A stretch of DNA of 64,000 bases from Diadema setosum. Lineage: Eukaryota > Echinodermata > Echinoidea > Diadematoida > Diadematidae. Below the pieces are notes generated by a model that made no database searches, was not told the origin of the DNA, and was given only the letters and a program-made list of their open reading frames with translations. Numbering within the stretch: position 1 is the stretch's first letter; the number at the start of each line of letters is the position of its first letter. The translations under genes and the position numbers were made by a program. The stretch covers positions 47,237,748-47,301,747 of the forward strand of contig NC_092688.1 in NCBI RefSeq assembly GCF_964275005.1, written 5' to 3'. This document shows positions 28,461 to 63,638 of the stretch, one piece after another.

Positions 28461-28495
28461 CTAATGCCAGGGAGGTTCCACCTCCCTGCTAATGC
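28461..28495. mobile_element. Nano-hairpin element, 21 bp, exact 7-bp direct repeats
   Basis: Palindrome CAGGGAGGT-TCC-ACCTCCCTG at 28468-28488 between two CTAATGC copies (28461-28467 and 28489-28495). Confidence 0.8.
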
Positions 28496-28532
28496 CTATA
28501 CAATGTACCGAGAATGGTTGTTTTAGTGGTTA

Positions 28533-28575
28533 GTTTACACAGGGAGGTGGAAAGAGCCCACCTCCCTGGTTTACT
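28533..28575. mobile_element. Nano-hairpin element, 29 bp, 6/7-bp direct repeats
   Basis: Arms CAGGGAGGTGG and CCACCTCCCTG around loop AAAGAGC (28540-28568). Flanks GTTTACA (28533-28539) and GTTTACT (28569-28575). It is 51 bp from the previous hairpin. Confidence 0.75.
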
Positions 28576-28885
28576 CCCTATGATCTCCTATAGTAGCCCT
28601 GCCTGTCTGTGTTAACCAGTTTCCCAATTGTCTGTACAAGTGCTAAGTTTTTCCCCCATCATCATCATCTTCGTGTCAATATGTCAGTTAATATGGAGAT
28701 CACCAGTGTCACGCAGTGGCCTGTGGAATAATCGTGGTCTGTATCCGTTTCATTCTAATTTGAATCCTTTACTGAGTATTTTGAATACTGCAGGCTAAGC
28801 CCCTCCTTCTAGTATAGCTATAGAGGTGACTAGGCGCTTGATATAGAAGAGTTCTCTCTTTCACCCTTTCGGGCAAAGACTAATT

Positions 28886-29213
28886 GGCCCGAATTCACGA
28901 AGGTGGTACAAATGAAACCATGGTTTAAACCATGGACAAAAACCATGGAGCGCCAAGTGTCGCACGGAATATTTCGTTACGAAATCGGATCATTTCGTCG
29001 ACAAAATGACCGTTTCGTTAACGAAATTATCATTTCGTGGAGGAAATGTTCATTTAGTTACAAAATGTTGTCATTTTATTGTCAAAATAATCATTTCATC
29101 GTCGAAATGACTGATTTCGTAACGAAATATTCCATGGGACACTTGGCACTTCATGGTTTTTGTCCATGGTTTAAACCATGGTTTTATTTGTACCACCTTC
29201 GTGAATTCGGGCC
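28886..29213. mobile_element. GGCCCGAATTC-ended foldback MITE with ATTTCGT palindromes
   Basis: TIR of about 60 bp: GGCCCGAATTCACGAAGGTG then GTACAAAT and CCATGGTTTAAACCATGG, mirrored at the right end. ATT flanks both sides (28883-28885 and 29214-29216). The centre is a ladder of ATTTCGTNACGAAAT-like motifs. The frame at 28903-29403 crosses it and is not a gene. Confidence 0.82.
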
Positions 29214-32200
29214 ATTGCGTTTGTCTCCCTTGCCATCCCTATTTAGGGAAATTACATGGCCGTTAGATGGAGAGTGCCTGTCATATCCAATACTGTTTCT
29301 GTTAAATCTTACATCCCTCACAGTAGCCTGGAATATTGTAATAAGACTGCTCTGCAATCTTTTATTCATATATGACTTTGGAGCAAATATTCCATTGGAA
29401 TAAATAAAGCACATTGAAATGGATACTATTTTGAATTTGTATGTCCGTCTCTTCTGTTGAGCTGTCGGGGAATATCATTTATTGTCCATTTAACACCGAC
29501 ATCGAACATCGACATCAAGATATGCTAAGGCGTTACAATACTTATCATGTAGAGGGAACACTTCGTAAAACCAAGGAGGTTCTAGAGAATAGAGTCACAA
29601 CCGTCTTATTTCCTTTGCTAGATGTTCGAAGCCGCCGCTCAAAAATATTTGAAGCATGTGCAAAACAGGATCTGCCGCGCAGATAGGAAGACAATTATTG
29701 ACTCGTGTCTCATTGCATAATCACTATAGCCACTTTCAAAGGAAGATATTTCTTTGTGATGGTAATTACTTTTCGCTATCCCTTCTTATAAAAGGTTATA
29801 GGTGATACAGACATGAGGATGCGCGAATAGAAATTGAGCAAAAAATGCTGAAATGAAGATGAAAATTACTCGACTGGGCATATGCGGGCACTAATCTGAT
29901 ATATCTATGGGCATTTCCACGGTAACTCACGTTACATTTTGAACTCAAAATTAGGTCGTAGAGATCAATATCCTTAAAACCTAATTAGTGATATGAGTTA
30001 CTATATGTGAATGAGTATCATGCACCTCCATCCTACCTCACAGCAACATTACATCCACAAATTCTTATGAGAACTATGAGAAAAAACACTACAAATGTTG
30101 GTAACTCACGTTACATAATTTAGACATGCAAAAATTTGGCATGTCTTATATTCAAAAGTTTCCTCAAACAAGAAACAGAGAGACTTTAAAGTCTATTGTG
30201 TCAAAGTCATGGACTAACAACATACATCACCGAGTATGGTAAAAATTCAAATTGTCTTACATTCTCCAGCTATCGTCATGTGAAGCGGTAACTCACGTTA
30301 CGATAACTCACGTTACAGTTTGTCCACATGATCACAAGACGATTTTTTGTATTAATAATCCAAAGAAAACTTACCAAGACAACTTTTTTTCACAAACAAA
30401 CTCCATGAATAAAGAATCTAAATTGATTTGAACATTGATCTGACAGTAATTAATCCCATTTTATCCATGAGATTACCAAAAGGCAGGAAACTTTACATTT
30501 AGAATACCAACTTGAAGATAAATTTCATTTTTAATTGAGTCGTGTTCCAAGCTTTCATTTGTACTGAGACAAAAATTGTATTCAACAAAATGATATGAAA
30601 CAGAGTCTATTTCATTAAATTACACTCTTTTCCAGTTAACAAATGCATCAGAAATTGAAGATTTGATTGAGAATTTGATTTGATTGTTTTTTTTTTTTTA
30701 TTTTTACTAAATGGATTTCAGGCTATCTAGATAAAACAAGTCATCCATAAACTATTCCATTTAATACACTGAGTCACGAGACTAGAGACCTGTCCATGTA
30801 GTCTGTGGAGAGTTTAAAGGTTCAGAAATGAATATTTCAATAAATCTTTTAACTTTTAAACAATGCAATTTATATTCCAATTATTTGATAATTGTTTGAA
30901 TTACTCAATAATCAATTGTTTGTATGTTTGATTTGTTTACAAATTCTTATACTAAACTGGTACAGAAATTAGAATTGAATTACAGAAACTGCAGATAAAT
31001 TTTAGTTATCTGCTACCAGTATTGATCAGTTTAATAAAACATGTTCATAAATGTTTAAGCCTTAAAAAGCAATGGTTTTGGTCTATGAAATGTCAAGTAC
31101 CCATTATTTGAATTGTACATACATGTAAAAAGTATACCAGTATCTTCTAGAGTAATCAAGCAGACTGAAGCAGTAAATCCCAATGAAAAACATGAATCAA
31201 TAGTAAATATTTTGTGATCAGGAGGCTAACTATTAATATCACAAAATGTTGATAGTTTGCTTTAAGGTACATTTTTGTACATGACTGTCCAGCTCTTAAA
31301 GAAAATGTCTGATAATGAGGTTCACATTCAACAGGTTTTTGGTAATAGATCAGCATGTAAAGTAAATTACAGAAAACATGGAAAAGTTTCATTGTAGGAT
31401 TTTGCAACAATATAGCTAAAACCTCAGAGTAGAATAGTATAAAACACATTTAAAAGCGTGTCAAATTCACAATGTTCAGTTCTCAAAAATCTCAGAAAAA
31501 ACAGCAGGAAGCGAGCTCCAATCTTAAAATTCTGTTCATACATGTAAATGTTTCAGCCTCATAAACAATGGCTTTGGTCTATATAGGTAGGTATAAACTA
31601 TGAAATGTCAAATAGTAATCACTTGAATTACAAAAACTTTTCAAGAATAATCATGCAGTGATTATCCCAATCAGGAGGCTATTAATAGTTATCACAAAAT
31701 TTTGATAATTTGCTGGAACAAGGTCCATGCAGCTTTAGGAGAATTGCAGGCTTTCAAGTGGCCCTACTTTTCCTACTTTTTCCTACTTTTTTACTGCTGT
31801 CCCTACTTTTCCTACTTTTTTGCTCAAAATCCTACTTTTTCCTACTTTTTCCTACTTTTTTGGTGAAAAATCCCGCCAAAAAAAAAAAAAAAAAAAAATG
31901 TGCAAGGCTACCCGGTACTTGAATAGTTTATATTCAGAAATGATGAGTAGACTCTAGTTGCAGATTCTTACTGGTGGGGAGAGCCTCTTCAGCATGAAAG
32001 AGGGATAACACAAACCAATCAACCACAAGACTGCTGCCAGCCTCAGTTTTTGCTCCTGTGCAGATGTGATTGATCCCACTTATATTGCAGCCTAGGACTT
32101 GGAGCAGCGCTCAACAAGCTCTCATCATCACTCAAAATTACCAGGTAAGCTTGCCATATACTTAAAAGTAGAATTTGACATGTGACTTCCAAAGAATACA

Positions 32201-34604
32201 ACTGAGGGAAAAATGCTGCCTACAGCCAGTTTTAATGGATGTAGAGTTCAAGCATATCATGTCTAATGCATGTGCTGGAATGCAAATCCTCAGAAACCAG
32301 AAATTTCCTTTGCTAAAATATGGTTTACTACGTAAATCGTAAAGGTCATGTCAAAACAAGAAATGACACCTTCAGATCCCCTTTGCCTGAAATCCTTCAA
32401 TAATATATGTTTTGATAACAATTAACAGTGATTGCAATATGAAAAACTTAATATAAAAGTAAGTGTTTCACCACAGAAACTAGATCTGGTTGATGTGAGG
32501 ATGAGTTATTCCCAAGAAAGCATGGATTGGTAGGGACCCATTTGTATGAAACTTGCATATTACTGAGGCTAAATCAAAAGCACTGCTCCCAAAGGTAAAC
32601 TGGACCTTTAACATGAGACATATGACTTGTGATATCTATTTGAATCATGGGCAGATGGTAGATATGACTACTAAAAACCTTAATTCATCTGAAGGTAAAC
32701 AGCTGAGGAAAGTTAGTTGCTGAAATCTCAGATGAACAAAAAAGAAATGTTTAATTAACAGATCCCACAAATTGTTAACAAGGAGTGAGAACAACAGTGA
32801 TTACTTAGCCATCGTGAAAGATAAAGACTAATAGAGCAGAAACCTCTTTATGGACAATCTTAAAAGTTGATGGCGTGTATACATCTTGCAAGTATTGTTT
32901 AAGAGGTTGAATTGCATCATAGGTAAGACATTCTACCTCGAAGAACTTAAAAGAAAGTAGGAAATGGAGGAACTTCACAGAAAACGAACACAAAAATAAT
33001 AATTCAGTAACGTTTAAAGATTGATTGAAGTTTAAACCATGAGACTTTGAAGTTCACTTCCTGACGACACTTACAAACTATCAGGAATATGTAGAGAGAA
33101 AAACCATCTAGAGCATTTAGGAAAGATAATGAATGCATATTCCACAAATAAGAGCAAGTGTGTGGATGTTTTAAGTTGAACCGCCAAGAACAGTTTGTTA
33201 AGTTTGGAGGAAACAACTTACAGAAAAAGTAGAAGCCATGATGTCTTTTTATTCCACAGATCTTGCAAATTTTAGTTAACGCTGAACATCTTTTTATTAC
33301 CCAGCTAGTTTGAACAAGATGTGAGAAAATGGTAGCACAGAAATCTCGTAATGAAAGTAGTCAAAGTGTGATGAGTCATTTGAAGTGACATATCCAAAAT
33401 ATTGAACCGTCTGAAAGAGTCTTGGTAAAATGTGAGACAGGGAAACTTTTTAAAGAAGAAAAAAGTGAATGGATGGATGTGTATGCCAATTGTGTCAACA
33501 TACAAAACTGTAAGTTGAAGGTGAAAACCAACAGAACAGTGGAGAGTATCAAAATTGAAAGTGCACAAATACACTGTATTTAAGGGGGGGGGGGAATGGG
33601 AACTGCATGGTAAATATACAGATTTTCTAGAGTGTATTTGCTCTCAAACAACCAGAGAAATCAGAGAAGCTAGCAAGGACTAAAATGATAATGACAGTCA
33701 CTGTTTATTTATTCTCCAGATCTTGCAAAGAGTAGTTTATAAGATTAACATGCTGAAATACTGAGCCAGCAAAATATCTGGAGAATGAAAAGCAGAATCT
33801 CAACCATGCAAAATTTCAAAGGCGGAAGGATGTAATATTCTCAAAATATATGAAGAAGTTTGATTTCAAGAATATTGAATGAACTTAAAAGTGCCTGGAA
33901 TAATTGCAAAATGGAGAATCTTCTTGAAAAGGTCAAATAGCTGTATGTGTATTCAACAAAAAGGGTCATGATGAGCTGAAAAAACAGTTGAATGTAAAGA
34001 ACTATTAACTATCTCCAGTAAATGTGGCAAATATTGCAAACAGTAGTAAGTCATTGGAAAGTACAGAATGATTATTTTCTACACCTCTTTCTAAATTAAC
34101 AAATGTAAGTTGATTCAAGAATTGATGGAATCTAGCATCAACAGAACACCAAAGAAATGAAAACATATTTATTTGTTATCTACAGAAAATTATCAAAAAA
34201 TAGAGTCATTTTTGCTCCCTATAAAGTCGGTAAGACTACAGATAGTGAGAAACAAAAAGCAGTATGTACATGTATGCTCCTCACATCTTGTAAAGTGGAG
34301 TCATTTGGTTATATTGCAGTGTTATGTTACTCTACATGCAAGAATACTACATTTCCCTGATGCTGAAATGTAAAGTATTTACTTTTTCTCTCTCTCTCTC
34401 TTTGGATATTTTGTATTCTATTGGTTTAAGTGTTTTAAATTGAGCTTGCCTTGTGTTTCCATCTATATCATATGATTATGAAGATAATCTATATCACTTG
34501 AAATTCAGCTGTGGACACTGTGCCATAAACTCACAGTATCTGAGTGTGTAGATTTGTAGTGGGCCAGGATTTGCAAAATAAAGATGTCAATGCATTGGTA
34601 GATC

Positions 34605-35046
34605 TTTCACTTCGTAAGGCCTCACTGTCATGAGACAACCCATTCTTCATGCATGTCTTGCTAGAAATGTAATATGATAACACATGCTCTCAGAGACTAA
34701 TACTGAGTGCTACATATAAGTAGTTTAAATTATCCTGTTATTTTGAAATGTTTGAACACATGTTAAGTGCTTACATGTATTTGAAATTGAAAGTCTCTTG
34801 GAAAGATATAATTTCACTTCATAAGGCCTCACTGTCATGAGACAACCCATTCTTCATGCATGTCTTGCTAGAAATGTAATATGATAACACATGCTCTCAG
34901 CATGGAGCTACTGTTAGTAGCTCCATGCTCTCAGAGACTAATACTGAGTGCTACATATAAGTAGTTTACATTATCCTGTTATTTTGACATGTTTGAACAC
35001 ATGTTAAGTGCTTACATGTATTTGAAATTGAAAGTCTCTTGGAAAG
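34605..35046 (+). repeat. Recent tandem duplication; second copy carries a hairpin insertion
   Basis: Copy 1 is 34605-34805 (201 bp) and copy 2 is 34812-35046 (235 bp). I see three substitutions. The only length change is 34 bp, equal to a 27-bp hairpin plus a 7-bp duplication. Confidence 0.92.
34894..34934. mobile_element. Nano-hairpin element, 27 bp, exact 7-bp direct repeats, empty site known
   Basis: Arms CATGGAGCTACT and AGTAGCTCCATG around a 3-nt loop at 34901-34927. CTCTCAG sits on both sides (34894-34900 and 34928-34934). The empty site with a single CTCTCAG is at 34687-34693 in the sister duplicate. Confidence 0.88.
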
Positions 35047-35123
35047 TAAGTATATTTCTTATCTCATGGTCATTCAGCTGGAACTTGAAAGCATACTAAG
35101 TTGTTGTGAGCATCACTTAATAG

Positions 35124-35345
35124 CTTTGTCAAACATCCTTCTATCCTTATATCCATTATATCCACACTTTTAAAGGAAACATATCTCCACAACTTCAAAT
35201 GAATGTAGATAAAAGTGTCATCTTTTTTAAAATTGCTTTTGTCAAATATCCTTATTTCCAATCTTTTTTACATTTTGGAATGAAACACATATCTTCACAA
35301 CTTCAAAACATTCAAATGAATGTAGATAAAAGATGCCATCTTTTA
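35124..35345 (+). repeat. Degenerate local tandem duplication (~110 bp)
   Basis: GCTTTGTCAAACATCCTT and CATATCTCCACAACTTCAAA with ATGAATGTAGATAAAAG recur about 112 bp later with scattered changes. Confidence 0.65.
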
Positions 35346-35428
35346 ATTATGGAAGTGTATAACATACCTTTGGCATAAATGTATAACTTACACATCATGG
35401 AATGTTTATGTCATATTTTGTGGGATGA

Positions 35429-36127
35429 TATGTGACCGTCCATCACAAAACTAACAAAAAGTCGCATGCACTGATTTTGTATTAGGACTGAAAATAGATG
35501 ATATGGGCCAATCCAGCCAGTCTTGAGTTTTTCATATTTTCTGAAAGGGCAAGTCTTCTTATATATTATAATAAAGTTTGGGATCATAAAACGAAAAGGA
35601 AATTGTGTTTTTTAGCAGTTTTTTTTTTCTGGAACATGCACTTTTTGGTAGAATAATGTGATTAGGTGTTTCTCATAGTCATCTTTTCATTTCTTAAAAA
35701 CCCTGTCCATACTTTTAACTTTCAACTCCAATAACTTTACAAAGGACGATGCTTCTGCTTTAAAAGTTGGCATTGATCACCTACAGAATGTGTTAATAAA
35801 GCATGCACAGCTTAATCTGATAATCTCTTCATTGTTGTAGCTCCAGTGGTTAACATTCTGTTATTTGTTCCATTCATTGCACAGCTAGCACGGCTTGATA
35901 AAGATTGAGCGCTTGAATAAATGCTATACTCCAGGAGCCCCTTTTCTCAGTTCACATTTTCCGGAGTGTGTGCTTTCATTCCAATATTAGGATCGGTTAG
36001 GAGAGTCCATTTGAATCGAGATATACATCATTTTCATCTTTAAGTTTGTTCTTTCAGAATCTGCTCTTAATTAAAAATCCATGTTTGGCAACTTTTTGTT
36101 GGTGTTGCGATGCAGGATCACATATAT
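35429..36127. mobile_element. TIR element of the ACTAACAAAAAGTCGC family, intact copy
   Basis: Left ATATGTGACCGTCCATCACA and AAACTAACAAAAAGTCGC. The inverted right end reads ATATGTGATCCTGCATCGCA and ACACCAACAAAAAGTTGC. The ~38-bp TIR matches the interrupted copy at 6645-7935. Confidence 0.78.
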
Positions 36128-37916
36128 GGTAGGTGTTCATGTCAATCACAAAATTATGTCTTTTCTATGTAAGTATTGTAATAAGTGATCAAGATTCATA
36201 CTGACTGTACGGTTGAACATGCATTTGTGCTTGTTACCTGACATTGTTCTAACGAACGTCTGCCTTTCTTGTATTTTTCAGGCTCTCCCAGGAGCAATAG
36301 TGAGGCTGAGGCAGCAGGGTTGTGAGTACAAATTAAGATTTACATGTAACATCAAGAGTTCTGGTGAGTATTGACGAAAACTACTCCAAAAAGCCTGCAC
36401 ATGTCCTCATTTATTCCTACTTTTTTTCTTTAATGCCCTACATTTTTCCTCTCATGTCCTACTTTTTCCTACTTTTTGAAAGATTTTGTTCCTACTTTAT
36501 TCCTACTTTTTTACGTTATCCTGCTTGAAAGCCTGGAATTGTCTTTTAACAACTTTCGTAACAGATCAGTATACATGCACTGTAATATTAAATAGTAAAT
36601 ATGGAACAGTTTCTTTCGGAAGTTAACATTAACGATGAACAAGTGATGTGTAATTAATACATTGTACATGTAGACCAGTTGGTTTGGTGACAGAGAGAGA
36701 GACCAAGAGAATGACAATCTACTGGAAATAGACCACAAGAGTTCAGTAATCATGTACTCATTGGTTACTTACAATCACAACCTTCATATCATTTCTTGGT
36801 ATTAAAGAAAAATCATGTCGGTAACTCACATTACATTGTGGTAACTCACGTTACATGGTAACTCACGTTACAATTTTAAGACCTCTGTTATGAGAATTTG
36901 AAGCAAAGACTATAAGTCCCATCATATTTCTTGGATGTGTGCTGCATAGTCATTTGATAATCCAAAATACCACGTCTCAGTTGGGCATAGTAAAATTGCT
37001 AGGTTAAAAAGTTCATGTTTCGGTAACTCACGTTACAGCAGCTTCTCGAGCTATGTAAGAGCACGCTGGTGTCCGAAGTAATATCTTATATCGAGGTCTC
37101 CACTTTATTTACTGCTAGATTGATATATTTTTGATTTGTAAAACCAAACAAAGTTTGATTTGAGCCTCAAATATAAAAAATAATTGCAAAGAGCAACAAA
37201 AATGCATTTTTAGGGATTTTTAGGTCAAAAAATGCTTTCTGGTTTCAAAAGGTATGAAAATGCACAAAAGAGAACTTTTCTTAAATGTAAAGTTGGTTTC
37301 ACACACTTCAAACTATGGCTAACAAAGTAAGATCATCAGTTGTCCTGAAATATGTGGGTAAAGTTTTGGTGGTCATGTCGCACAACTCACGGAAATGCCC
37401 CTATACGTGAAGATTATTCCATATTAGTTTCATTTGTGGAAACTAAGCGGAAAAGTGATAAAACCAGCTTTCCAGGATGGTACAGTTTTAAACATTTTCA
37501 CATGATACAGCTCAGATTTACACTTTTGCGCAAATTTCTGGACGGAAATGTCTTTTGTTTTAGATGCTTTATCATTAATTGAAATTTCATTTCATTTAAT
37601 AAATAGATAAGCAAAATATGGCCAAAATTATGATAACATTCAAAATTAATCTTCAGAATGCTGAGCAAGACGGTGGCAAGGAACATCGATCATCAAAGGC
37701 ACAAGTGCACCTGTGGAATTCCTTTGTACATCAATAGAAATCTGACAACTGTTTGAATAATCACAGCCAGTTGGAACTCCAATGTATAAAACCTTGGTAA
37801 AACTGAAGTCGTACATTGTAAATGCCATATGCTTTGTAATGTTGTCCTATTACGGCTTAATGTAAATCTGGGAAACGTCAAAACGAAATGCAGTCATAAA
37901 GCGTGTAGTAATCTTC

Positions 37917-37917
<1 letters not shown>

Positions 37918-37963
<46 letters not shown>
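37918..37963. repeat. (AT)n microsatellite followed by T run
   Basis: About 22 TA units followed by about 13 T. Confidence 0.95.
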
Positions 37964-37971
<8 letters not shown>

Positions 37972-38025
37972 TTTTGTGATGATGATGATGTTACAAGACA
38001 TTGATGGAAAGTAATGGTCTGAAAC

Positions 38026-38386
38026 TTAAAGGTCCTGTTTACCTTTGGGAGCAGTGATTTTAAAAATTTTTAAATATCACATTTGATGCATATGCGTAGG
38101 TCTGTTGTATCACAAAACATCCTACCATAATATAAGATTTTCGCAATAAAGTCTAAGATGTAAGGAGATATCAGTATTTTTCTCAATAAACCATAACTAT
38201 AGACGGTTTAGTCTGGAAACATGTTCATCATCATGATTATATAGCTATTGTTCACATTTTTGTTTGTATTTAACTAGATTACGGATTCAATTTTTTTACA
38301 GGGGTTGTTTCTATCCCTAACTCACATTTTAGAACTATTTTAAAGCACTAATGCTGGGTTATGCAAATGGTAGATTATGCCTGTAA
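38026..38386. mobile_element. TTAA-ended MITE (AGGTCCTGTTTACC / AGGCATAATTTACC family), reverse copy
   Basis: TTAAAGGTCCTGTTTACCTT at the left. The right end ATTATGCCTGTAA is the complement of the AGGCATAATTTACC end of the copies at 58418 and 61770, with TTAA decayed to GTAA. Confidence 0.75.
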
Positions 38387-38639
38387 TGACGGTATTATGT
38401 CAGAATTTATTCTCATATGCTATGCCCCAAACCATAATTGGTCTGCAATCTTGGCGTTGTATTCGATGCAAAATAAAAATCTGTCATTCAAAGATTATAC
38501 TTTATATAATTATCCCAATCTGTAAGATTTCATCTGCTTAACCTGGGTTCAGTTCAAAGATATAACTACATCAGCGGCAGAAAAATTGACGCATGCTCTT
38601 ATTCTTCTTCTTTTTCTTCTTCATTATTAATTTTTTCTT

Positions 38640-38709
38640 CTCATTAGTATTATTAATATTATTACTACTATAATTGTTGATATGATTATCATTATTATTA
38701 TTATTATTA

Positions 38710-38749
<40 letters not shown>

Positions 38750-38889
38750 CATCATCATCATTATTATTATTATCATCATCATCATCATAGTCATCATCAT
38801 CATCATTATAACAAATAACTGATTGTAGCATCTTTGGGAACGAGCTCGGTATGGGCATCGGTTTCTATATAAATTACATGTGTATGCGT

Positions 38890-38929
<40 letters not shown>
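38640..38929. repeat. (ATT)n/(ATC)n and (GT)n microsatellites
   Basis: TTA/ATC arrays at about 38680-38810, and (GT)n at about 38889-38929. Confidence 0.95.
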
Positions 38930-38930
<1 letters not shown>

Positions 38931-39253
38931 ACGAGCTCTTTATGTAACTATTTCAAGTAATCATCTTAATTCCAAACAATAGTCAAGCTGATTTTGATAA
39001 ATAGACTAAATTCAAAATATAAAAAATGTTGGAAAAGACCCCGAGAACAACGAATCATGAAATATCAAAGGTTTCACGCGTTTTCAAGGCTTTGTAAAGG
39101 CTCAAGGCTTTGTAAAGGCTCTTTACAGCCACCATGTGAGAGAGGAATGTAAGCGACATTCACCTCAGCTATAGCTTCGCTCGTAATTGTCGTTAAATAC
39201 ATGTCATGGTGTGTACAGCGAACAGTGCTGCTGGTCGGAAGCAGACGTGTATA

Positions 39254-40574: not shown

Positions 40575-40680
40575 ACAACAATACAAAGAAAATATAAAAG
40601 GAATTCAACAGGTTTTCATATTTCTAACAAAATAGAAGAGTGCTTGACTTACCTCTTTCAGAAAGCATGAGGGGGGACAA
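40575..40680. repeat. Fragment of the AGGACAAG foldback family
   Basis: ACAATACAAAGAAAATATAA, AATTCAACAG and ACTTACCTCTTTCAGAAAGC match the central part of 9021-9600. Confidence 0.6.
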
Positions 40681-45624: not shown

Positions 45625-45692
45625 CATAGACCAAGGAGTCATCCTGTGTCTGTTGCATAGACCAGGGAGGGTTCCCACGTCCCTGCATATAA
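45625..45692. mobile_element. Two adjacent nano-hairpin-like units sharing CATAGAC flanks
   Basis: CATAGAC (45625-45631), a degenerate 24-bp unit starting CAAGGAG and ending GTTG (45632-45655), CATAGAC (45656-45662), a 23-bp palindrome CAGGGA...TCCCTG (45663-45685), then CATATAA (5/7 match). Confidence 0.55.
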
Positions 45693-49162: not shown

Positions 49163-49198
49163 GTTATTTCATGTTCGTTTGTAGCTCCATGGTTATTT
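49163..49198. mobile_element. Nano-hairpin element, 22 bp, exact 7-bp direct repeats, one arm decayed
   Basis: GTTATTT (49163-49169), unit starting CATG and ending GTAGCTCCATG (49170-49191), GTTATTT (49192-49198). Confidence 0.65.
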
Positions 49199-50184: not shown

Positions 50185-50208
50185 CATGGAGCTATTTATA
50201 GCTCCATA
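50185..50208. repeat. Nano-hairpin-like palindrome without clean duplication
   Basis: CATGGAGCTAT-TTATAGCTCCATA fits the family arms. Flanks TTTGCACTGA and TTTGCATTTGA are only roughly similar. Confidence 0.4.
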
Positions 50209-52841: not shown

Positions 52842-54667
52842 GGGCTGAGGCCTTTTCATGTAGGCCCTACTCTAAAAAGCAAATGTGCAGATCATGTAAG
52901 GATCTTCTAGCACAGATTCACCACAATATTTCTGTAATGAACTCACTGCCAATGCCATGATGCAGGAATGTGTAAAAATTTCTGTCTCAGTCATTAAATG
53001 AACATTACTTCCATCAACGACCATAAAAAAGTTTAAATTGCATCCCAGTAATTTCATAAGGTAAACTTTATGTACATGTACAGTACATGTAGCTGTTACT
53101 AAAAGAATGCAATTCTTTTTTTTTTTTTTTTTTTTGGTCTTCTTCAAAACTAACACTATCCAACTATGACATCATACAATGTAGGACATAAAAAATCAGT
53201 TGTGTGGAGCCAAAGGTGACTGGAGTTTATTAAATACAGCACAGCGGGATTGCCTAGCTGTTCACTCCAAAGCAATTAGGGCCTACTGTAGGGATGGAGT
53301 GGGAAGCTTTCTTTACTGTTGACAGCTCTCAAATGCATCGTAGGCCTACATGTACATACATAATTTGTACATGTACTGGAAAAGATGTTGTGAAGGAAAG
53401 AACTTGAAAGGATTGAACCCAGTGAACTGAATGAATCAGGCATGATTTTTATATCTTATATATGTTGACAAGGTCCCTTTCAGATGGTATTCCACTAAAT
53501 ATTGGTTACCCATACTCATGATGGATCTATGGGGCTGAATTCTGTTTGTTTTCATTGACACATGTCTGTAATCATTGGTCAACATTGGGAATGTCAAATA
53601 TCACGTGTAAAAACATGAGTCCCTCCCTTGCTAGTGTTGTGTCCATGTTACCTTCACAGCAAGGGCAGTCAGCCTTGCTACCATTTAGCCTGTGTTTTCT
53701 TGTTTTGTTTTGTTGCATTTTTCTGCAAAAGAACTTCCCAGATATACAACCTATAGGAGTCTTTTGACAGTTCATTGAGCTGTCAAGGGATCTGGGGGGG
53801 GGGGGGTAACTTTCATTCCAAAGGTTTGTCAGTGTTTTGGTTTGAGCAAGAACTTTTGAAGACAGATACAGTGTATCAGCCTTCAAAAATCCAGTGTATC
53901 CATCCTGGAAAATGTCCCCGTAGGAAAAGAGTAAGCTGTATACTTGTCATCTGAAGGATTTTCCTTAGGATAAAGCTACAAGAAAGCATACAGTAACTCC
54001 AACAATGCACAATATGACAAAACATGTACCACTGGTATGTGTTACATTAGCATAACCCTGAGATTTCCAAGGTACATTTTGTACTGATACTCTGAAATTG
54101 TAGTATCAATTTGTGCATTGTGTCATTCACATTGATTGTTCTAAACATAGATTTGAACAGTGTTCATCAAGAATGTCAGAGCAAAATGGAGGGTAGAATA
54201 CACAATACAAATTGTACATTTGTACCACTGTACAACCACAAAATCGAGGAATGAATTCCTGGAACCTATTGTGTTTACATGATGTCATGATGCTGCGTGC
54301 AGTATTGCACGTAGATAATGCACTTTGCTTGTGCTTGTGTTAGAGGCAGGGACAGTGAGTATTGCAGTGCACTGGAGCATGGTGTTAGCATGGCACCCTT
54401 GCCTTGGCTTCACACACACTCCCAGGCGGTGAATGGGAGAATCCTGCTTGCTGATTGGTCCATTTGGAGGGGAGTGGTGAAGGTCTGTCCTTGATCCCTT
54501 ACAATGTACTTTTGGTTCCCATAAGTGTTCCCGTACTATGCTCACCTTCTAACTGACATTTTGTTGAAATCTGAGAAGAAAGGGGGCCTCTGTTCAGTGT
54601 GCAGGATGCATGCTGGGGATACAGAGCAATGATGCATGCACTTGTACACTGTACATGCTGGGGGATA

Positions 54668-54710
54668 CCAAGACCAAGGAGGTACTAGTGTAGTACCTCC
54701 TTGCCAAGAC
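54668..54710. mobile_element. Nano-hairpin element, 29 bp, exact 7-bp direct repeats
   Basis: Arms CAAGGAGGTACTA and TAGTACCTCCTTG around a 3-nt centre at 54675-54703. CCAAGAC on both sides (54668-54674 and 54704-54710). Confidence 0.82.
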
Positions 54711-55964
54711 AACGCACTGTCAACTCTGTGCATGTTTCAGTGTACCAGGCTACAGTACACCCCATATCCAGTACTTTTAGTAGGGCTCGTAGGTATGAAT
54801 TCATGGACTTTTTCAAACCCAGCCATTAAACTAATGAAAGATGCTGAATACATTGAAATACAGTGTAGATTACATGTATGAAACCAGGGATGTTGCATGT
54901 AGGCCTGCAAATGTAGTTACAATTGATATACAGTACCAACGTGAAAACAAGAAGAAAAGTAGTAATAAAAATATAGCAAATGAAATTTTGGTGTTTTTTT
55001 GTTTGTTTGTTTGTTTGTTTGTTTTTTTGTTCATCTAGCCAGTAGCCAGGCCTTGTAAGAGTTACGTGTATCTTCTATCAAACTGTGACTTGCATTTATG
55101 TGCGCAGTTGTGACAACAGTAGCCAATATTGTCCTTGAGTTGTCAGCAGAAATACTCTGTAGACAGGTACTGGGTACAGTGCTCCCAGGGTAGTACCGTG
55201 TACCTCAGGTGGTATCTATAGTTTCTAATGTGTTGATTTGTAGAAATCATCTTGGCTAAATGCCATAAATTTGTGCTCCTGTGTGGGAACATGAACTACA
55301 TGTATGTAATGAAGTGATTCCTGCTGTTCAACAATGTTACAATAAAGCAGTATAAGTTTGATATGTGTGATGTTCCCTGAAGACTGATACAATTGTAGAT
55401 TAAACCATGAAAAGTAAATCATTTTTTTAAGGCCATCCCTACAGAATGAAGACTGATAATTTCAACCATGAAGCCTGATGAACAGTAAATTAATCCTGTA
55501 GGCCCTACAGTGTATTTGATGGTATTCTCATTGATTACTGAATTATCGGAGAGTGGTAAATTATTTGTCTCAGTTTGAATTAAGATTCTGTGTCTATTTG
55601 ACTATTATGTTTTCAAACCTGACAGGAATGTAGACAGAATTGTATAAAAACTTACTGGTTTATGAAAATTAAATCTTGATATCAGTATTCTTTGATATGT
55701 AAATGAAAAATATGGAATGAATATTAAATATTAAGGACAATGGTGCACCAGTAGTTCACAAAACTTTAAAAAAAAAACTTGCTGGAGGTCACACTCTAAA
55801 AAAAAAACGAAGAAAAATACTGATAATGAAAAAATAAATAGGGTTTACCGCAGATAAAGTGAAGGACACTGTATTGAAAGTATTGTGACAAGATGACAAT
55901 TGACAAATGATGATAAGAGTACATGTAGCACAAGGCAAAAAAAGAAAAAAAGTAATTTCAGTAC

Positions 55965-57806
55965 TGGCAAGTGGCAAGTGGGCCTGATGATATATCCCCT
56001 CGTGTTGTCAAGGATTGTATACATTACATAGTTGACCCCTTATGTGATATTTTTAATAAATCTTTAAGCACTGGCTTTGTACCCGCAAAATTAAAGACAG
56101 TGAAGATTGTACCTTTGCATAAAAAAGATGATCCAAAATATATTGATAATTATAGACCTGTTGCTCTTCTTTCAATTTTTTCTAAACTTCTAGAAAGACT
56201 TATGTATGACAGGCTCTATGAGTTCCTTACTAAAAATAATATATTAATTTCTGAGCAATTCGGTTTTCGTAAAAATTATTCTACTTCACTCAGTGTTATT
56301 TGTTTTACTGACTACATTCTTCAAGAAATTGACAAAGGTAATTATTGCTGTGGTGTATTTATGGATCTCTCAAAGGCGTTCGACACCATCGACCACCACA
56401 TCCTGCTAACGAAACTACATCTCTACGGAATAAGAGGTTTACCTCTGCAATGGTTTGGTAGTTATCTATCAAATAGACGGCAGTATGTGGTGGTCGATGG
56501 TGTCGAATCCACTCAATTAGATGTAACTCTTGGCGTACCGCAAGGTTCTGTACTTGGGCCCCTTTTATTCCTTGTATATGTAAATGACATAATCAACTGT
56601 TCAAAAATTTTGAGATTTTCACTTTTTGCAGATGATACTGTGGTATTTTACTCTCATGAAAATGTTACTTCACTTGTACTTACATTGAATAAAGAACTTT
56701 GTATGTTAAATGAGTGGTTTAAATGTAATAAATTGTTTTTGAATTTTAAGAAAACAAAGTATGTTTTGTTCCATTCCAAAAGAAAGAAAATACCACAAAA
56801 TCTTTCTCCAATACAAATAGAAAGTGCTGTTATAGATAGAACTGAATCAATAAATTTTTTAGGTATTTTAATCCATGAGTCTCTCGATTGGAAGTGTCAC
56901 ATTACAAACATCACCGCTAAAATATCGAGAAGTATAGGAATTCTATCTAAACTTAAATCTTTTTTACCAAGAAAAATATTGCTTTCTATTTACAATGCTT
57001 TGATATTACCTCACCTTAACTATTGCAGTGAAATTTGGGGCAAGACATACAAAGTTCATATTGACAAACTGTTCAGATTACAAAAACGTGCGGTACGGCT
57101 TGTAACAAAAAGTGATTTTCGAAGTCCGAGTCTACCTCTTTTCATTAAAAATAAAATCATTCCTATATTTGAACTTGTGCAACTTAATGTATTGGTATTC
57201 ATGTTTAAGTATCATAAAGGGATACTCCCTTCCATTTTTCAAAACATGTTTAGAACAAATTCGTCATTCCATGCATACTCAACCCGTTCTAAAGATAATC
57301 TTCGAGTTCCAAATTGTCGCTTAACAACAAGGTCTCATTCTATTCGATTCACAGGGGCGCATGAATGGAATTTAATTTCTTCTGATCTTAAATCCAGTAC
57401 TACACTTACTCGTTTCAGAACCCTATTCAAACGTATTACATTTAAAAAACTATCATCCTTGACTGAGTAGACTTCAACAGCTGTACTTTTTCTTCTTTCT
57501 TTATCTTTGTTTCTTCACCCTCTTACCAATCTCTTGCATTGCATTTTTACTGAGTGTATGCTTGCGTATGTCTATGTGTATATTGTAACGTAATTCTGTA
57601 TTTTCTAGTTTACTACTTATGACAGAAATTTCGATATATGCTTAATTGCATTTTTGTTATTGATTGTTTGATTGCTGCAAAGGGGCCCCATAACAAGCAC
57701 TAGTTGCTTACAAGGGGTCCCGGCCTTTGAATGTTATGTCTTTTATAATGTGCATTTTTTATGTTGTATCATACAGTTGCCGAATAAATTGAAATTGAAA
57801 ATTGAT
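55965..57806 (+). mobile_element. 5'-truncated CR1/Jockey-like LINE
   Basis: Starts abruptly inside the reverse-transcriptase domain with no endonuclease or ORF1. The full remaining ORF is followed by a ~330-bp 3' UTR with a GC-rich hairpin block (GGGGCCCCATAACAAGCAC ... TACAAGGGGTCCCGGCC), then AATAAATTGAAATTGAAA. The short tandem 3' tail in place of poly-A is typical of CR1/L2-type LINEs. Confidence 0.88.
55971..57470 (+). CDS. LINE reverse transcriptase ORF (5'-truncated, otherwise open)
   Basis: About 500 codons without a stop, opening at an in-frame GTG rather than a genuine start. Motifs in order: NYRPV at 60-64; motif A MDLSKAFD at 131-138 with the first catalytic Asp; GVPQGSVLGPLLF at 188-200; motif C FADD at 219-222; then SINFLGI and a thumb/connection region with LPHLNYCSEIWG. 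The C-terminus ends FKKLSSLTE. The enzyme would perform target-primed reverse transcription. This copy lacks the endonuclease, so it cannot be autonomous. The open frame implies recent insertion or little time for decay. Family level is judged by motif style. Confidence 0.9.
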   Translation: MASGPDDISPRVVKDCIHYIVDPLCDIFNKSLSTGFVPAKLKTVKIVPLHKKDDPKYIDNYRPVALLSIFSKLLERLMYDRLYEFLTKNNILISEQFGFRKNYSTSLSVICFTDYILQEIDKGNYCCGVFMDLSKAFDTIDHHILLTKLHLYGIRGLPLQWFGSYLSNRRQYVVVDGVESTQLDVTLGVPQGSVLGPLLFLVYVNDIINCSKILRFSLFADDTVVFYSHENVTSLVLTLNKELCMLNEWFKCNKLFLNFKKTKYVLFHSKRKKIPQNLSPIQIESAVIDRTESINFLGILIHESLDWKCHITNITAKISRSIGILSKLKSFLPRKILLSIYNALILPHLNYCSEIWGKTYKVHIDKLFRLQKRAVRLVTKSDFRSPSLPLFIKNKIIPIFELVQLNVLVFMFKYHKGILPSIFQNMFRTNSSFHAYSTRSKDNLRVPNCRLTTRSHSIRFTGAHEWNLISSDLKSSTTLTRFRTLFKRITFKKLSSLTE

Positions 57807-57815
57807 GTTAGTGAT

Positions 57816-58034
57816 CAGGGCTCAACTATTAGTGGTGGCAGGACTGGTTACCAATTTTCCAAAAAGGCTATCTTTTGGTGGTCGAATGCGGCCTTTAAGA
57901 TTCAAAATAGATCGTTATGTTTCCTCTAACAAATGTATTTCAGGCCACCAAAACTTCAGATTGAAAGATTCTAGTACCAATAGTAGCCTGAATGGGCCAC
58001 AAGAAAAAAAAAAAAAAGTTAGTGTAGAGCCCTG
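57816..58034. mobile_element. CAGGGCTC-ended hAT-like MITE
   Basis: CAGGGCTCAACTATTAG at the left, GTTAGTGTAGAGCCCTG at the right. The CAGGGCTC terminus is common in hAT elements. No exact 8-bp duplication seen. It abuts the LINE tail. Confidence 0.6.
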
Positions 58035-58417
58035 CTGATGCTGATACTATCTGGATGACACTAATTTGGTACTTCCCCTTTAATAATGTTATTGTCATAT
58101 AATCATGACTAAGTAATTGTTTTCAGAGTAAAGAGAAATGTGAGAAATACCATGGACATATTTGTACAATTGTAGGTCTGTGGTATTGAATATTAGTGTG
58201 GTCACAGGAAGGCGGCACAGAATTAAACACTGCCCCCATTGGTCAGAAAACTCACCAAACATCAATGTTGAGTGAAGTAGAGACCCCAGGAAGCCTCAAA
58301 GAAGCCTCTTATCTCTTCCATCCTAAAATTAAAGGTCTTTTTGAAACACCCTTGAAAGTACCTCAACTGTGGTTACGTAATTGCTGGTGGAATGTGTTTT
58401 TGGGCAACGTTCCATAT

Positions 58418-58790
58418 TTAAAGGCATAATTTACCATTTGCAGATGAAACAAAAACCCAGCATTAGTGCTTTAAAATGGCTCTAAAATATGAGTTAAGGA
58501 TAGAAACAACCACTGTAAAAATTTGAATCCGTTTTAGCAATGTTAAGTATCGTTTAATACATGAAATGTAAACAATAGTTCTGATAAAAATGTTTCCAGA
58601 CTATTAAAATCGTCTACAGTTATGGTTTATTAAGAAAAATGCTGATATCTCCACATTTTAGGCTTTATTGCAAAAGATTTTATATGGTAGAATGTTTTGT
58701 GATACAACACACCTACACATACACGCATCAAATGTGATATCTTGAAAATTTTTTAGATAAGTGCTCCCAAAGGTGAAACTGGACCCTTAA
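58418..58790. mobile_element. TTAA-ended MITE (AGGCATAATTTACC family)
   Basis: TTAAAGGCATAATTTACCAT at the left, AGGTGAAACTGGACCCTTAA at the right. TTAA at 58418-58421 and 58787-58790. Confidence 0.8.
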
Positions 58791-58979
58791 AGGTCAGCAG
58801 GCACTCATTTAATTTGTCCAGCATTCAAATGAAGAGCAAGTCAGCTTATCATCTTGTAGAAACATGTTTTCGAAATTCAAAATGAATAAAACCTTGGGCT
58901 TATAGATTCATAACAATCATAAAAGATGCAATATTTGGTATCATTAATCAAGGTTTCTAATCAGTTTGTCTCCTTTTCT

Positions 58980-59375
58980 TGATTTTTTTTTTTTTTTTTT
59001 GGGGGGGGGGGGGGGTGTGGTCCCCGTGATGCGGGGAAAGTCCCGAGCTGTGGGACTTTCTCCTCAAAAACCATAATGTGAACGCTCGCTGGGACTTGTC
59101 CCCTCGTCCCCGCAAAGCAAGTCGGGTACGGGGACAAGATAGTATTTGGAGGGGAGAGTGACCTTGGGGCGAAATTGATAGCGTCCAGCTGTGGTCATCA
59201 AATGTGCGCATGCGCTATGCCTGGATTCAAGTGGCAGAGCTCGCTCCAAGCCCCCAAATGCCCCCACAGCTCGGGGACAGATGAGATACCAATGTGAACG
59301 GTCAGTCGTAAAAAACATAAGATCTCTTGTGGCTGTCCCCACGTCGCAGGGACCAATGTGAACGCGGGGATAGTG
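58980..59375. other. GC-rich repetitive segment with TGTGAACGC motifs
   Basis: T and G runs at 58982-59016, then GGGACTTTCTCC, repeated AATGTGAACG(C/G) at about 59076, 59291 and 59349, and GGGGACA/TGTCCCC motifs. Probably an old MITE. Termini unresolved, no gene. Confidence 0.35.
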
Positions 59376-59823
59376 GGATGGAGGCCCTACCCATAGTTCA
59401 TTCCTGAGTACTTGAGATGTGGTATGATTGAGGTATAATTTTCTTACTTCGTTATCTAGTAAAATTTGATCTTTCGTGCTGAGAGTCACAAACAGGCAAT
59501 CAATTGACTGAAAGAATGTCCAACCTCCCAGATGGTTTGATATGGCGGAGGATCCATCCTCATTGATTGTAGCTGAATAGTTCTTGCCAATTTAGCAATC
59601 TATCCAAGGTTAATTCCCCAAACTTGTTATTTCCACTATCAAAAACTCTGGCATGGAAAGGGTTTGCTGGAATAGGCATGGAAATTATGTTACTGATAAT
59701 TTAATGTACAATACAGGTATGAAGCATAAGAAAAAAAAAAGCTGGGGAAAAAAGGGTGGCACCCATGTATCTACATACGTATGTACACATGGCATCCGGC
59801 CAGCTGCAGTGTTGTTTACATGC

Positions 59824-60291
59824 TTAAAGGGGACCTCCAGATGATTTTCAGACTTTTACATTTGAACAACTATAAATTAGTCAAACTGAGTACAGAGTTT
59901 CAGAATTTATAGTGATTTGGATAAGTAATGAAAATGTTTTCAAAATTTATAATTAATTGCAATGAACAAGGATGATGACATGGCAGCCTCACCATAAGAA
60001 TGCATGAGTTGGGGCTCAAGGAAGCAGAACAAAAGAAGAAGGTATGCATGGATTTTTCACAGGTGAACTCGTTGAGCAAGCGGTATTGTAATGGAATTAC
60101 ACTGCTACATTTCTGAAATATATGAGGCTCTGATGTCATCATCACTGTTCAGTGTAATTTGTTTAAGATTTTCAATTTATTGGTTTCTCTGCTCAAGGAC
60201 CACAATAAATTCCAAGGATCTATACATGGAGCTGTTGATTTATGTACTACATGATGTGAAATTATGAAAATCGTCCGGAATGCCCCTTTAA
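59824..60291. mobile_element. TTAA-ended MITE (AGGGGACCTCCAGATG family)
   Basis: TTAAAGGGGACCTCCAGATG with ATTTTC at the left; GAAAATCGTCCGGAATGCCC then CTTTAA at the right. TTAA at 59824-59827 and 60288-60291. Confidence 0.75.
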
Positions 60292-60580
60292 GTTTTATCA
60301 GGTGACAAGCTGGCTGGGATGCATGCAACAGCCACATTTGGTTTCCTGAATGGTAGAGATCCCCTTCCTCTACGCTGCACAATTCCTCCAAGCACCAGAC
60401 CCCAGGTATCTCATGAAGCACAGTGCTAGCATGGTTCAAACAGTTTACCCTTTGCTCCCTCACGTGTGCAGACATCTGCACCCACTACATGGTCATGGTG
60501 TACGGGTATGTAGGCCTACATAGTTTGCCCCTACCAGACCCAAGGACACAACATCTCTTTGTTGAGAGAAAAGGATGATA

Positions 60581-60966
60581 CAGGGATGCCAAGTTCAAAA
60601 AATTTTTATGAGTGAGATTTTCATGACTCGGCATCTCGGCGAGCGAATGTGCGCGCGAGCGAGGGTGTGGGAGGGTTTTTTCCCCCTGTGGCCTCCCACG
60701 GTAGGGAGCTTTTTCAATTCTTAGCTCTTAATGGTGCGATCAGGTGCATACTTAAGTGACTATTCTTTACTTATTTTGAAAGACAAAAGGAAAATATACC
60801 TTCAATTGCAACTACCACTCTAATCCTTTTAGATATGCTCCTTATTATAGGCCCAAGTTGCAGACTTCGTCCGATGAGTGAGAAAAATGGGTGCCATGCG
60901 TGAGATCGTGAGACGGCCCCTAAATGCTTGAGTCTCACGCAGAATGCGTGAGACTTGGTAGCTCTG
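60581..60966. mobile_element. CAGGGATGCCAAG-ended MITE
   Basis: Left CAGGGATGCCAAGTT, inverted right end CAGAGCTACCAAGTC. ATGATA flanks both sides (60575-60580 and 60967-60972). Interior GAGTCTCACGCAGAATGCGTGAGAC hairpin in two arms (GTCTCACGC / GCGTGAGAC). Confidence 0.6.
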
Positions 60967-61769
60967 ATGATAGAAATACAATTTTTACAAGTAAGTCCTT
61001 GACCCCGGACAGAACATTCCCCCTGTGTACTTGAATGATCGGGTGATATGCACAGTGAGGTTTTTCCTGTAGATATTTGATAATAAGCCAGTTCACATGT
61101 GCAGACAAAGGTCATTGCAGACCGTCTCTTGAAATGGATTGCAATTGAGGTATTCAAAACCTTAGATAGGGCTTCATGACAACTGTGTTATAAATGAACC
61201 AGGTGCAGATTGGTATGTACAGGTGAATGTGCGTTCTTTTCAGCAGCATTAACAAAAGCCATTCATGCAGCACTGATATGTAAATTACAACTTCCTGCAT
61301 GGCTGCTTTCAACTGCTCTTCTTGAAGACTATTCCATGTATTGCAAAGTCTGTGGTTGGAGAGGTCATTGCAGACTATTGCTAACTGTGAACTGGCTTAT
61401 CAGAAATGCACAGAGATCGAGCTTGCCCCATTCTCATTATAAATTCTTGCCATTGTTTACACACTGAATATGATGCGTGGCAGCCATCTTGCATATCGTT
61501 CTGTTAGCTGCATTAAAACCTAAGCTCTCACATTGCCCTGGCACTCCCATTCCAGACTCTGTGCGTACACGCTCCCCATTTGTTCCGTCACGTGTGTGAG
61601 CATCTGCTCTCTGCTCTGCTGCGATGTTCCCCCAGGCGTAGTGTTTGTCGAACCCACTTTTGTCAGAGGTCACTGTACACAGAAAGGTCATGGTCTCAGT
61701 ACACATAGGGAAGATCAACGGCAGTGTAACATTGTATTTTGTACCTTACGATGAGGTATCTAGCCTACT

Positions 61770-62749
61770 TTAAAGGCATAATTTACCATTTGCAGATGAA
61801 ACAAAAATCCAGCATAAATGCTTCAAAATAGTTTTAAAATATGAGTTAGGGATAGAAACAACCAATGTAAAAATTTGAACCAGTATAATCGATGTTAAGT
61901 ATTGTTAAAGTATACAAAATGCGGACAATTTTTTAGTTTTAAATAATAGAAATGTTTCCAGGTTAAACCGTCTACAGTTACATGTAAGTGTATGGTTAAT
62001 TGAGAAGAATGATGATATCTCCTTAAAGGACAAGTCCACCTTCATAAACATGACGATTGAGAGAATGCAGCAATATTAGTAGAACACATAGGTGAAAGTT
62101 TGAGGAAAATTGGACAATCCGTTAAAAAGTTATGAATTTTGGAAGTTTCAGTTCCGCGATCGCCCGATGTGAAGACTACTACAGCTTGTGATGTCATATG
62201 AGTACAACCATACAAAGAAACTATAAAGAAAATTCAACATATTTTCACTTTTCTCGCATAATAGACGAGCACATGACTTGCCTCTTTCAGAAGGCAGGGG
62301 AAGTAATATTACCCTGAACATATCTACAGACTGTATCAGTTACAAGTTGAGGGAATGTGTACTTTCTTCAAAAAATGAAATTTTGTGGAATTCTCTTTAT
62401 ATTTTCCTTATATCGTTGTATGCATGTGACATCATCAACTGCAGTAGTCTTCTCATCCAGCAGTGACTGCACAGAAACTTTAAAAATTCATAACTTTTGA
62501 ACGAATTGTCCAATTTTCCTCAAACTTTCACTGATGTGTTCCACTTATATTGCTGAATTATCTCAATCCACATGTATATGAAGGTGAACTTGTCCTTTAA
62601 TAAATATTTTAGGCTTTATTGCAAGAATGTTATATGGTAGGTCATGTTTTGTGATTTATAAACTGACCTGTTTGTACACATGACTGCATCAATTGTGAAA
62701 TCTTTAACATTTTTAAATCACTGCTCCCAAAGGTAAACAGGACCTTTAA
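61770..62749. mobile_element. TTAA-ended AGGCATAATTTACC MITE hosting a nested MITE
   Basis: TTAAAGGCATAATTTACCAT at the left, GGTAAACAGGACCTTTAA at the right. Compared with 58418-58790 it is interrupted after GATGATATCTCC by the element at 62027-62596. Confidence 0.8.
62027..62596. mobile_element. AGGACAAG foldback MITE inserted at TTAA
   Basis: Between TTAA at 62023-62026 and 62597-62600. AGGACAAGTCCACCTTCAT at the left, AAGGTGAACTTGTCCT at the right. Comparison with the uninterrupted host family shows the insertion directly. Confidence 0.87.
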
Positions 62750-62758
62750 TATTGGACT

Positions 62759-62761
<3 letters not shown>

Positions 62762-62793
<32 letters not shown>
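62762..62793. repeat. T homopolymer
   Basis: About 32 T. Confidence 0.97.
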
Positions 62794-62794
<1 letters not shown>

Positions 62795-63277
62795 GTGACC
62801 TTTGCAATTGGGTCAACATTCAGCCACTACGGTATATGTATAAAGCCCTATAACCTCTTGTGTGTGGGTAGTAAGTTATGGACCAAATGACTTCTGTTTT
62901 AATAGAGGACAAAATATTATGTACCCCATTGACTACATACTACAGTTTATACATCATGTTGTACATTATCATGCTAACATGTATGAACTAAACTTTTAGC
63001 ACCATACTAGGTAGAGTGATGACATAAGACTGTACCGAATTCTGTTTGCATATCTTGAAGATGCACTAGTCGTGGATGCAAAGTACAGGGCCGCTGTGTA
63101 GTGGCTTACAGTCCGGTGTGCACGTCCATGATATACGATGGTCGATGTTCAAGGAGGAAAGTATTGGTACAAAGAGCCCCTTTCCACCCCCAGGCCTGAT
63201 TGGAGCATTCCTACAACTGCAGATCCACATGTTGTGGCATGTGCACATGTAGGGTACTAGTACATGACTTCCAGTGT

Positions 63278-63305
63278 GTCTGTACATGGAGCTCTATGGT
63301 CTGTA
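63278..63305. mobile_element. Minimal nano-hairpin element, 14 bp, exact 7-bp direct repeats
   Basis: CATGGAGCTCTATG at 63285-63298 (palindromic except one pair, no loop) between GTCTGTA copies (63278-63284 and 63299-63305). Confidence 0.68.
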
Positions 63306-63601
63306 GAAGTACTATGCATCCTTTGTATGATGAGGTGCCCTGAGAAGGGAAGTGTAGCCGAAGGTACATTGTAGGCCTACTGCTTTCACGCGCTGACAAA
63401 TGTGACTGTTTGGCTCTCAGCCAAGTAATGTAGGACCACATTTACTAGAGTTATGCAAACTAAAGGGATGGAGTACCAGCGGTTTATCAAATAATGAATA
63501 AATGCCTTGCCCAATCTCCAAAGCATGTTTGCACTGTAGGTACACAGTATTAAACTTCAGGTGTCCCTGAACCCTGCAGTCAGAAGTACAAATTTATGTA
63601 T

Positions 63602-63638
63602 GCGGTACCAAGGAGTAGGCCTAACTCCTTCATGGTAC
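63602..63638. mobile_element. Nano-hairpin-like palindrome, degenerate flanks
   Basis: CAAGGAGTAGGCCTAACTCC then TTC at 63609-63631. Flanks GCGGTAC and ATGGTAC agree at five of seven positions. Confidence 0.45.

Follow-up and report, generated by a model that had tools for sequence, protein, structure and literature searches.

Short palindromes between 7-bp repeats in the genome of Diadema setosum as probable excision footprints of transposons with a P-like way of working

What are the short palindromes that lie between matching 7-bp repeats in the genome of the sea urchin Diadema setosum? A 64,000-nucleotide (nt) stretch of contig NC_092688.1 (positions 47,237,748 to 47,301,747 of the forward strand; hereafter the window) contains a family of such palindromes, with ends of the form CANGGAG. 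The initial annotation read them as very small mobile elements that insert with a constant target-site duplication. The window and searches of the whole genome suggest instead that they are probably footprints of larger cut-and-paste transposons, which left their tips between the two copies of the target site when they were excised. Such a footprint is called a scar below.

Direct checking of the sequence confirms the six exact, mutually different 7-bp repeats that had been noted in the window. They are CTAATGC on either side of the 21-bp palindrome CAGGGAGGTTCCACCTCCCTG (28461-28495), CTCTCAG around a 27-bp palindrome (34894-34934), CATAGAC around 24 bp (45625-45662), GTTATTT around 22 bp (49163-49198), CCAAGAC around a 29-bp palindrome (54668-54710), and GTCTGTA around the 14 bp CATGGAGCTCTATG (63278-63305). 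Two of the six have just one good arm, at 45632-45655 and at 49170-49191 (the right arm in the latter), and the CATAGAC repeat at 45625 overlaps a short tandem immediately upstream. A 29-bp palindrome of the CAGGGAGGTGG type at 28533-28575 has the repeat GTTTACA/GTTTACT, and this is indeed a match at six of seven positions. Two matches at five of seven had also been claimed. The one at 45663 is present as CATAGAC/CATATAA at a second palindrome, CAGGGAGGGTTCCCACGTCCCTG (45656-45692), which abuts the first; the same target was possibly reused by a second event. The one at 63609 holds only on accepting a mutated right end in the decayed palindrome at 63602-63638. Another decayed palindrome, CATGGAGCTATTTATAGCTCCAT (50185-50207), is without a clear repeat.

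The window contains more of these insertions than simulated sequence does. After masking of tandem repeats, 12 insertions ending in CA...TG have exact 7-bp repeats, compared with 1.9 (maximum 6) in 20 order-2 Markov simulations. Repeats of 6 bp (8 observed, 7.0 simulated) and 8 bp (1 observed, 0.5 simulated) are not in excess among CA...TG-ended insertions of the window. The CANGGAG family accounts for six of the 12, and the other six may be chance. Scars are also unusually dense here, with seven in the 64-kb window and one in 200 kb made up of 20 other stretches. As a separate observation, positions 54615-54667 consist of GGGGATA, 39 bp of the form CAG...CTG, and GGGGATA again; they abut the scar at 54668 and are possibly a scar of another family, or chance.

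One of the palindromes has an empty counterpart inside the window. Positions 34605-34811 (forward strand) are a tandem copy of 34812-35052, and before the last few bases the copies have three single-base differences. The second copy exceeds the first by 34 bp, made up of the 27-bp palindrome and one CTCTCAG; the first has a single CTCTCAG. The empty site with one 7-mer that the initial annotation proposed to look for thus exists as a paralogue. On the simplest reading, the insertion would have entered a single 7-mer after the tandem duplication. No empty-site paralogue of the other window palindromes was seen in the fetched sequence.

The family is found throughout the genome, and the 7-bp repeats go with it. 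The 912.7-Mb Diadema assembly (102 contigs) was searched with exact tip patterns and with reversed patterns as a control. There are 735 palindromes of the form CATGGAGCTA...TAGCTCCATG at 20-40 bp, 282 of the form CATGGACCTA...TAGGTCCATG at up to 50 bp, and 3,615 of the form CAGGGAGGT...ACCTCCCTG at up to 48 bp, with 0, 0, and 1 in the respective reversed controls. The counts leave out mutated tips, the CAAGGAG type, and the CAAGGAGGT type, and the matches are not all necessarily independent scars, since some palindromes ride in longer repeats. Flanks were compared at 41 palindromes on contig C1. For the CATGGAGCTA type these are the first 22 in the list less C1:19546595 (21 palindromes), and for the CATGGACCTA type the first 20 in the list. 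The 7-bp repeat is exact in 27 of the 41 and has one mismatch in seven, so that 34 have at most one mismatch. Repeats of 4, 5, 6, or 8-12 bp gave no exact match in this sample, and 3-bp repeats gave one. When flanks of different palindromes were paired, 3 of 1,640 pairs were exact at 7 bp and 17 had at most one mismatch. Flanks of the CAGGGAGGT type were read at three places: the repeat is exact at 28461 and at a site in L026, and six of seven at 28533. These results agree with the earlier proposals that the family is no coincidence and that the sites are the work of a single activity that always duplicates 7 bp of target. A viral-contig pattern scan found one palindrome (in L001), at which a 7-bp repeat was not visible.

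Longer transposons have tips of the same kind as the palindromes. A relaxed long-range search of the window found a 482-bp copy on the forward strand at 11395-11876, internally shortened, with a 16-17-nt terminal inverted repeat (TIR), CATGGACCTACTACAC, and the 7-bp repeat GTGCGAC/GAGCGAC (six of seven; 11388-11883 with the repeats). Other pairs from this search were numerous, at about the level of chance, and those anchored at position 6 were window-edge artefacts. The 482-bp element has at least 75 matching stretches in the genome (40 of 798 candidates were scored). The matches mostly start at query positions 5-8 and end at 489-490, where the tips lie at 8 and 489, and relatives commonly match as two blocks around a longer middle. 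Both ends were recognised in four of eight fetched loci, including the window copy, all with repeats of six of seven. With its short length, many copies, TIR, and near-exact target duplication, this element has the features of a miniature inverted-repeat transposable element (MITE). The palindromes of 14-29 bp do not fit this class: their second tips are unequal or nearly missing, and their centres mostly differ.

Two other longer elements lie on the forward strand of the window. The transposon at 20180-20930 has a TIR of about 31 nt (CAGGGAGGTG...GGAGTGGCAAC) and unmatched flanking 7-mers. Its 24-nt subterminal inverted repeat (20281-20304 and 20868-20891) was seen in this one element, and the combination of a TIR beginning with CA and subterminal inverted repeats is as expected for the P superfamily. 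A candidate 8.2-kb transposon at 29572-37796 has ends CAAGG.../...CCTTG, each with the inner motif GAGTNNCAAC, and the exact 7-bp repeat GTAAAAC (29565-37803 with the repeats). Of the 1,894 long pairs with CAAGG-, CATGG-, CAGGG-, or CACGG-type ends that were tested, no other has an exact repeat; at 1/16,384 per pair, chance would give about 0.1. Eight copies of the 14-mer GTAACTCACGTTAC, each with no more than one mismatch, lie on the forward strand at 29922-30303 and 36821-37023. At that stringency it is found in the window only near the two ends of the candidate, and the copies are possibly transposase binding sites. Elsewhere in the genome, a second family has the tip CATGGAGCTACTAACAGAGATGGAGTAACAAC, read in L101. 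The 31-34-nt TIR pattern that includes this tip gave 47 exact ends, of which 38 form 19 facing pairs; the spacing is 1.02-1.06 kb in 17 pairs and 3.7 and 5.3 kb in the other two. A/G-type TIR ends number 375 genome-wide.

The anatomy of the scars suggests a cut deep inside the element followed by end joining. Twenty sites were hand-chosen and fetched from 67 in which the CATGGAGCTACTAACAGAGATGGAGTAACAAC-family tip is present over its first 20 nt. In seventeen, a short insertion stands between 7-bp repeats; 14 of these have exact repeats, two have one mismatch, and one has an exact repeat that is 3 nt off. The tip kept in these scars is 20 nt long in 12, 21 nt in four, and 22 nt in one, while the opposite end keeps 0-17 nt. 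Two copies of the target thus enclose nothing but end sequence of a longer transposon, as in an excision footprint. The low scores of L091 and L102 come from mutated right ends, and L084 and L090 have exact repeats with a second tip of at most 4 nt. Among the three other sites, L101 continues into a full element end and L086 into another TIR; L085 is unclear and continues into what by eye is tRNA-like sequence. In L099 three extra nucleotides stand between the tip and the exact target repeat, suggesting filler added outside the tip.

The lengths and centres of the palindromes fit the same picture. Beyond 40 bp the CATGGAGCTA type falls abruptly, with only 25 at 41-71 bp (reversed control 0), eight of which contain a shorter match. 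Two of the 25 retain 20-21 nt on each side, the expected full double tip. In the CAGGGAGGT type, lengths do not exceed 37 bp in 47 of the first 50 listed. After the strands are collapsed, 39 of 50 listed palindromes of the CATGGAGCTA type and 34 of 50 listed of the CATGGACCTA type are distinct, and the most frequent single form is CATGGACCTACGTAGGTCCATG, with seven of 50 listed. Compound scars with a tip within a tip occur at G000:C2:16080557, C12:20321028, and C11:181938; perhaps they arose by template switching during joining, or one site was used repeatedly.

A simple sequence of events could produce these scars. A transposon with inverted ends CANGGA... would insert at a 7-bp staggered cut, giving the two copies of the 7-mer that are seen in the sequence. 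On excision, the transposase would cut the 3' end of the element at the junction, and its cut in the opposite strand would fall about 20 nt within the element, so that each broken chromosome end would retain an inverted-repeat tip. End joining would then trim and join the two complementary tips. A staggered cut followed by end joining predicts a ceiling on the length of kept tip, and the product would have the observed order of 7-bp repeat, tip, variable junction, tip, and 7-bp repeat. The targets, from 43 distinct repeats, show the motif GTNNNAC, with T2/A6 at 0.81 and, over about 15 bp, further symmetric positions that are less marked. Both strands enter these frequencies as an average, and an asymmetric motif facing either way at random would hardly exceed about 0.65. 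The scars thus have a 7-bp target duplication with the palindromic GT...AC preference looked for in 7- or 8-bp duplications of P-type elements. A P-like way of working is well supported, and with a Galileo-like 7-bp target and P-like ends the transposase would most likely belong to the P-element superfamily, a placement that we infer from anatomy.

P-type transposase genes are present in the genome. Profile searches gave 52 matches to PF21787 and 34 to PF21788, and there are two P-type transposase frames of 767 and 770 amino acids with four P domains each. These two frames are genes without a link to the parent elements of the scars. The nearest PF21787 match to the listed TIR ends is 11.4 kb away. 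The stretches that carry P-type genes include two pairs (L040/L041 and L042/L043) that are 94-99% identical on different chromosomes and reach the limits of the fetched sequence; they are either very large P elements or duplications.

Several observations weigh against an origin by P-type excision. A good 7-bp repeat is absent at seven of the 41 palindromes fetched from C1, although three of these (L047, L056, and L061) are one palindrome carried within copies of a 1,021-bp transposon, and another belongs to a twin copy in which the partner has an exact repeat. Target repeats of full elements were read at the four 482-bp-family loci, and none of them is exact. The 20 tip sites were preselected to keep at least 20 nt, so that only the ceiling is informative, and a 45-bp palindrome (G000:C16:27576646-27576690) retains 29 nt of one tip, above the ceiling of 20-22 nt. 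L087 has no second tip and a repeat of six of seven, and may be chance. The depth of the cut would be 20-22 nt, compared with 17 nt in Drosophila P. As for the genes, all 52 PF21787 matches are more than 10 kb from the 47 listed TIR ends and from the first 100 of the 375 A/G-type ends, and neither long TIR pair (3,716 bp at G000:C5:10833901-10837616 and 5,258 bp at G000:C10:12749573-12754830) contains a match to PF21787 or PF21788. In the 8.2-kb candidate, 10 of 34 listed frames were scanned and no Pfam family scored above the cut-off. Four P loci (two near-identical pairs, read over 8 kb) do not show such a TIR pair, and a search for ends of their own gave nothing convincing. No match to the N-terminal THAP domain was found in the two open frames scanned, from which an upstream exon may be missing.

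Other origins of the palindromes account for fewer of these observations. Chance or slippage might explain the six CA...TG insertions of the window that lie outside the family. For the family itself it is ruled out by the simulations and the mismatched-flank controls, together with reversed controls of 0-1 beside hundreds to thousands of matches. The initial annotation had taken the units of 14-30 bp to be mobile themselves, which in this case would require a transposase acting in trans. The 7-bp target duplication and the empty site fit such units, and so does the recurrence of some forms such as the most frequent one above. However, this origin is now improbable. Most centres differ, the two tips are unequal and the second is sometimes nearly absent, their length has a ceiling, and longer elements share the kind of tip; a unit without one end could hardly have transposed as such. 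The forms that recur often are short and symmetric, and complementary tips joined again and again could produce them. One recurring form (four of 50) lies, at each occurrence, within a pair of ends of the 1.02-kb transposon family. The earlier remark that nothing beyond the arms is left for a transposase to bind is best answered by excision.

Two further alternatives keep the larger transposons but change the mechanism. Interrupted homologous gap repair after excision could leave internally deleted transposons in place of end-joined stubs, and gap repair is an origin of internally deleted P elements. Such elements are common (PMC7776569). The internally shortened 482-bp copy and the palindrome with 29 nt of tip are what this process might leave. 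Its breakpoints would be expected anywhere, whereas the kept tip ends at 20-22 nt in all 17 scars and the numbers drop from 735 to 25 at about 40 bp, making gap repair a poor candidate. There is a better, though still minor, chance that the transposase is not of the P type and also cuts deep inside its ends. This variant is compatible with excision footprints, and it would fit the finding that no P gene was found within these elements. On the other side, targets of 7 bp with GT...AC, 31-nt ends beginning with CA, subterminal repeats, and a deep cut are known together for the P superfamily, and no other superfamily is known to combine all of them. Excision of P-like transposons followed by end joining remains the preferred explanation of the scars.

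The rest of the window contains features of other kinds. Over 106 compared amino acids, a coding exon at 26303-26686 on the reverse strand has 97% identity to a tryparedoxin-like protein of Diadema setosum and 84% to that of D. antillarum. At 28885-29214 there are arms of 102 nt that are 95% complementary with 126 nt between them, a separate foldback or MITE-like element. An open frame of 504 amino acids at 55956-57470 resembles the reverse transcriptase of long interspersed nuclear elements, as judged by reading its translation. Positions 826-1816 and 14092-14562 have G/C-rich repeated ends with a spacing of about 325-345 bp. Rfam searches (at gathering scores) and tRNA searches of the window gave no match.

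Overall it appears somewhat favored that Diadema has a lineage of the P superfamily not described before, with 7-bp duplications and an unusually deep stagger of about 20 nt, and that end joining has followed so often that the genome holds a readable, base-level log of several thousand excisions. Among the papers listed by full-text word searches of the open-licence literature, the titles and abstract openings describe no such sea urchin palindromes and no scars on this scale or of this depth, which is weak evidence. DNA-transposon excision is usually studied by laboratory assay. With hundreds to thousands of scars and recognisable parents, excision, the position of the cut, and the outcomes of germ-line repair could be read from one genome, and if the explanation is correct the scars are a natural test of what end joining produces in the germ line of a deuterostome. 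The depth of the cut is a biochemical prediction that can be tested directly. There is also a caution for repeat annotation: a short palindrome with a target duplication is not necessarily an element, and the scars suggest adding a class for footprints.

Parallels to the Diadema scars can be found in several systems. The mitochondrial genomes of sponges and algae have hairpin elements that are likewise short dispersed palindromes. The Diadema palindromes differ in being nuclear and in having target duplications and parental transposons. Among nuclear transposons, MITEs of the Stowaway/mariner type also leave end letters and the duplication at the donor site, but what stays is short sequence from the element ends (PMC4561436), compared with as many as 22 nt of one end in those Diadema scars that were read. 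Pdre2/THAP9 of zebrafish has ends beginning with CAT and a short TIR with subterminal repeats, while its TIR is 13 bp and its duplication 8 bp (PMC10983969). Galileo, a member of the P superfamily, makes 7-bp duplications at the target GTANTAC within a 15-bp palindrome, which resembles GTNNNAC in Diadema (PMC4168063). Its TIRs are long and internally repetitive (PMC3573991), in contrast to about 31 nt in Diadema.

A further parallel, in mechanism, is with the P element of Drosophila. P elements have a 31-bp TIR, 11-bp subterminal repeats, and a cut 17 nt inside the end, and they hop locally over 50-150 kb (PMC7776569). The TIR length and the subterminal inverted repeats are alike in Diadema, and in P excision too the deep cut within the TIR can leave tips behind, with repair by end joining or homology (PMC7776569). 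Local hopping over such distances might explain why the window has seven scars when other stretches have so few. In P the duplication is 8 bp and the stagger 17 nt, while the Diadema scars have 7 bp and would reflect a stagger of about 20 nt. Diadema is further set apart by the number of its scars, hundreds to thousands for each tip in a single reference genome.

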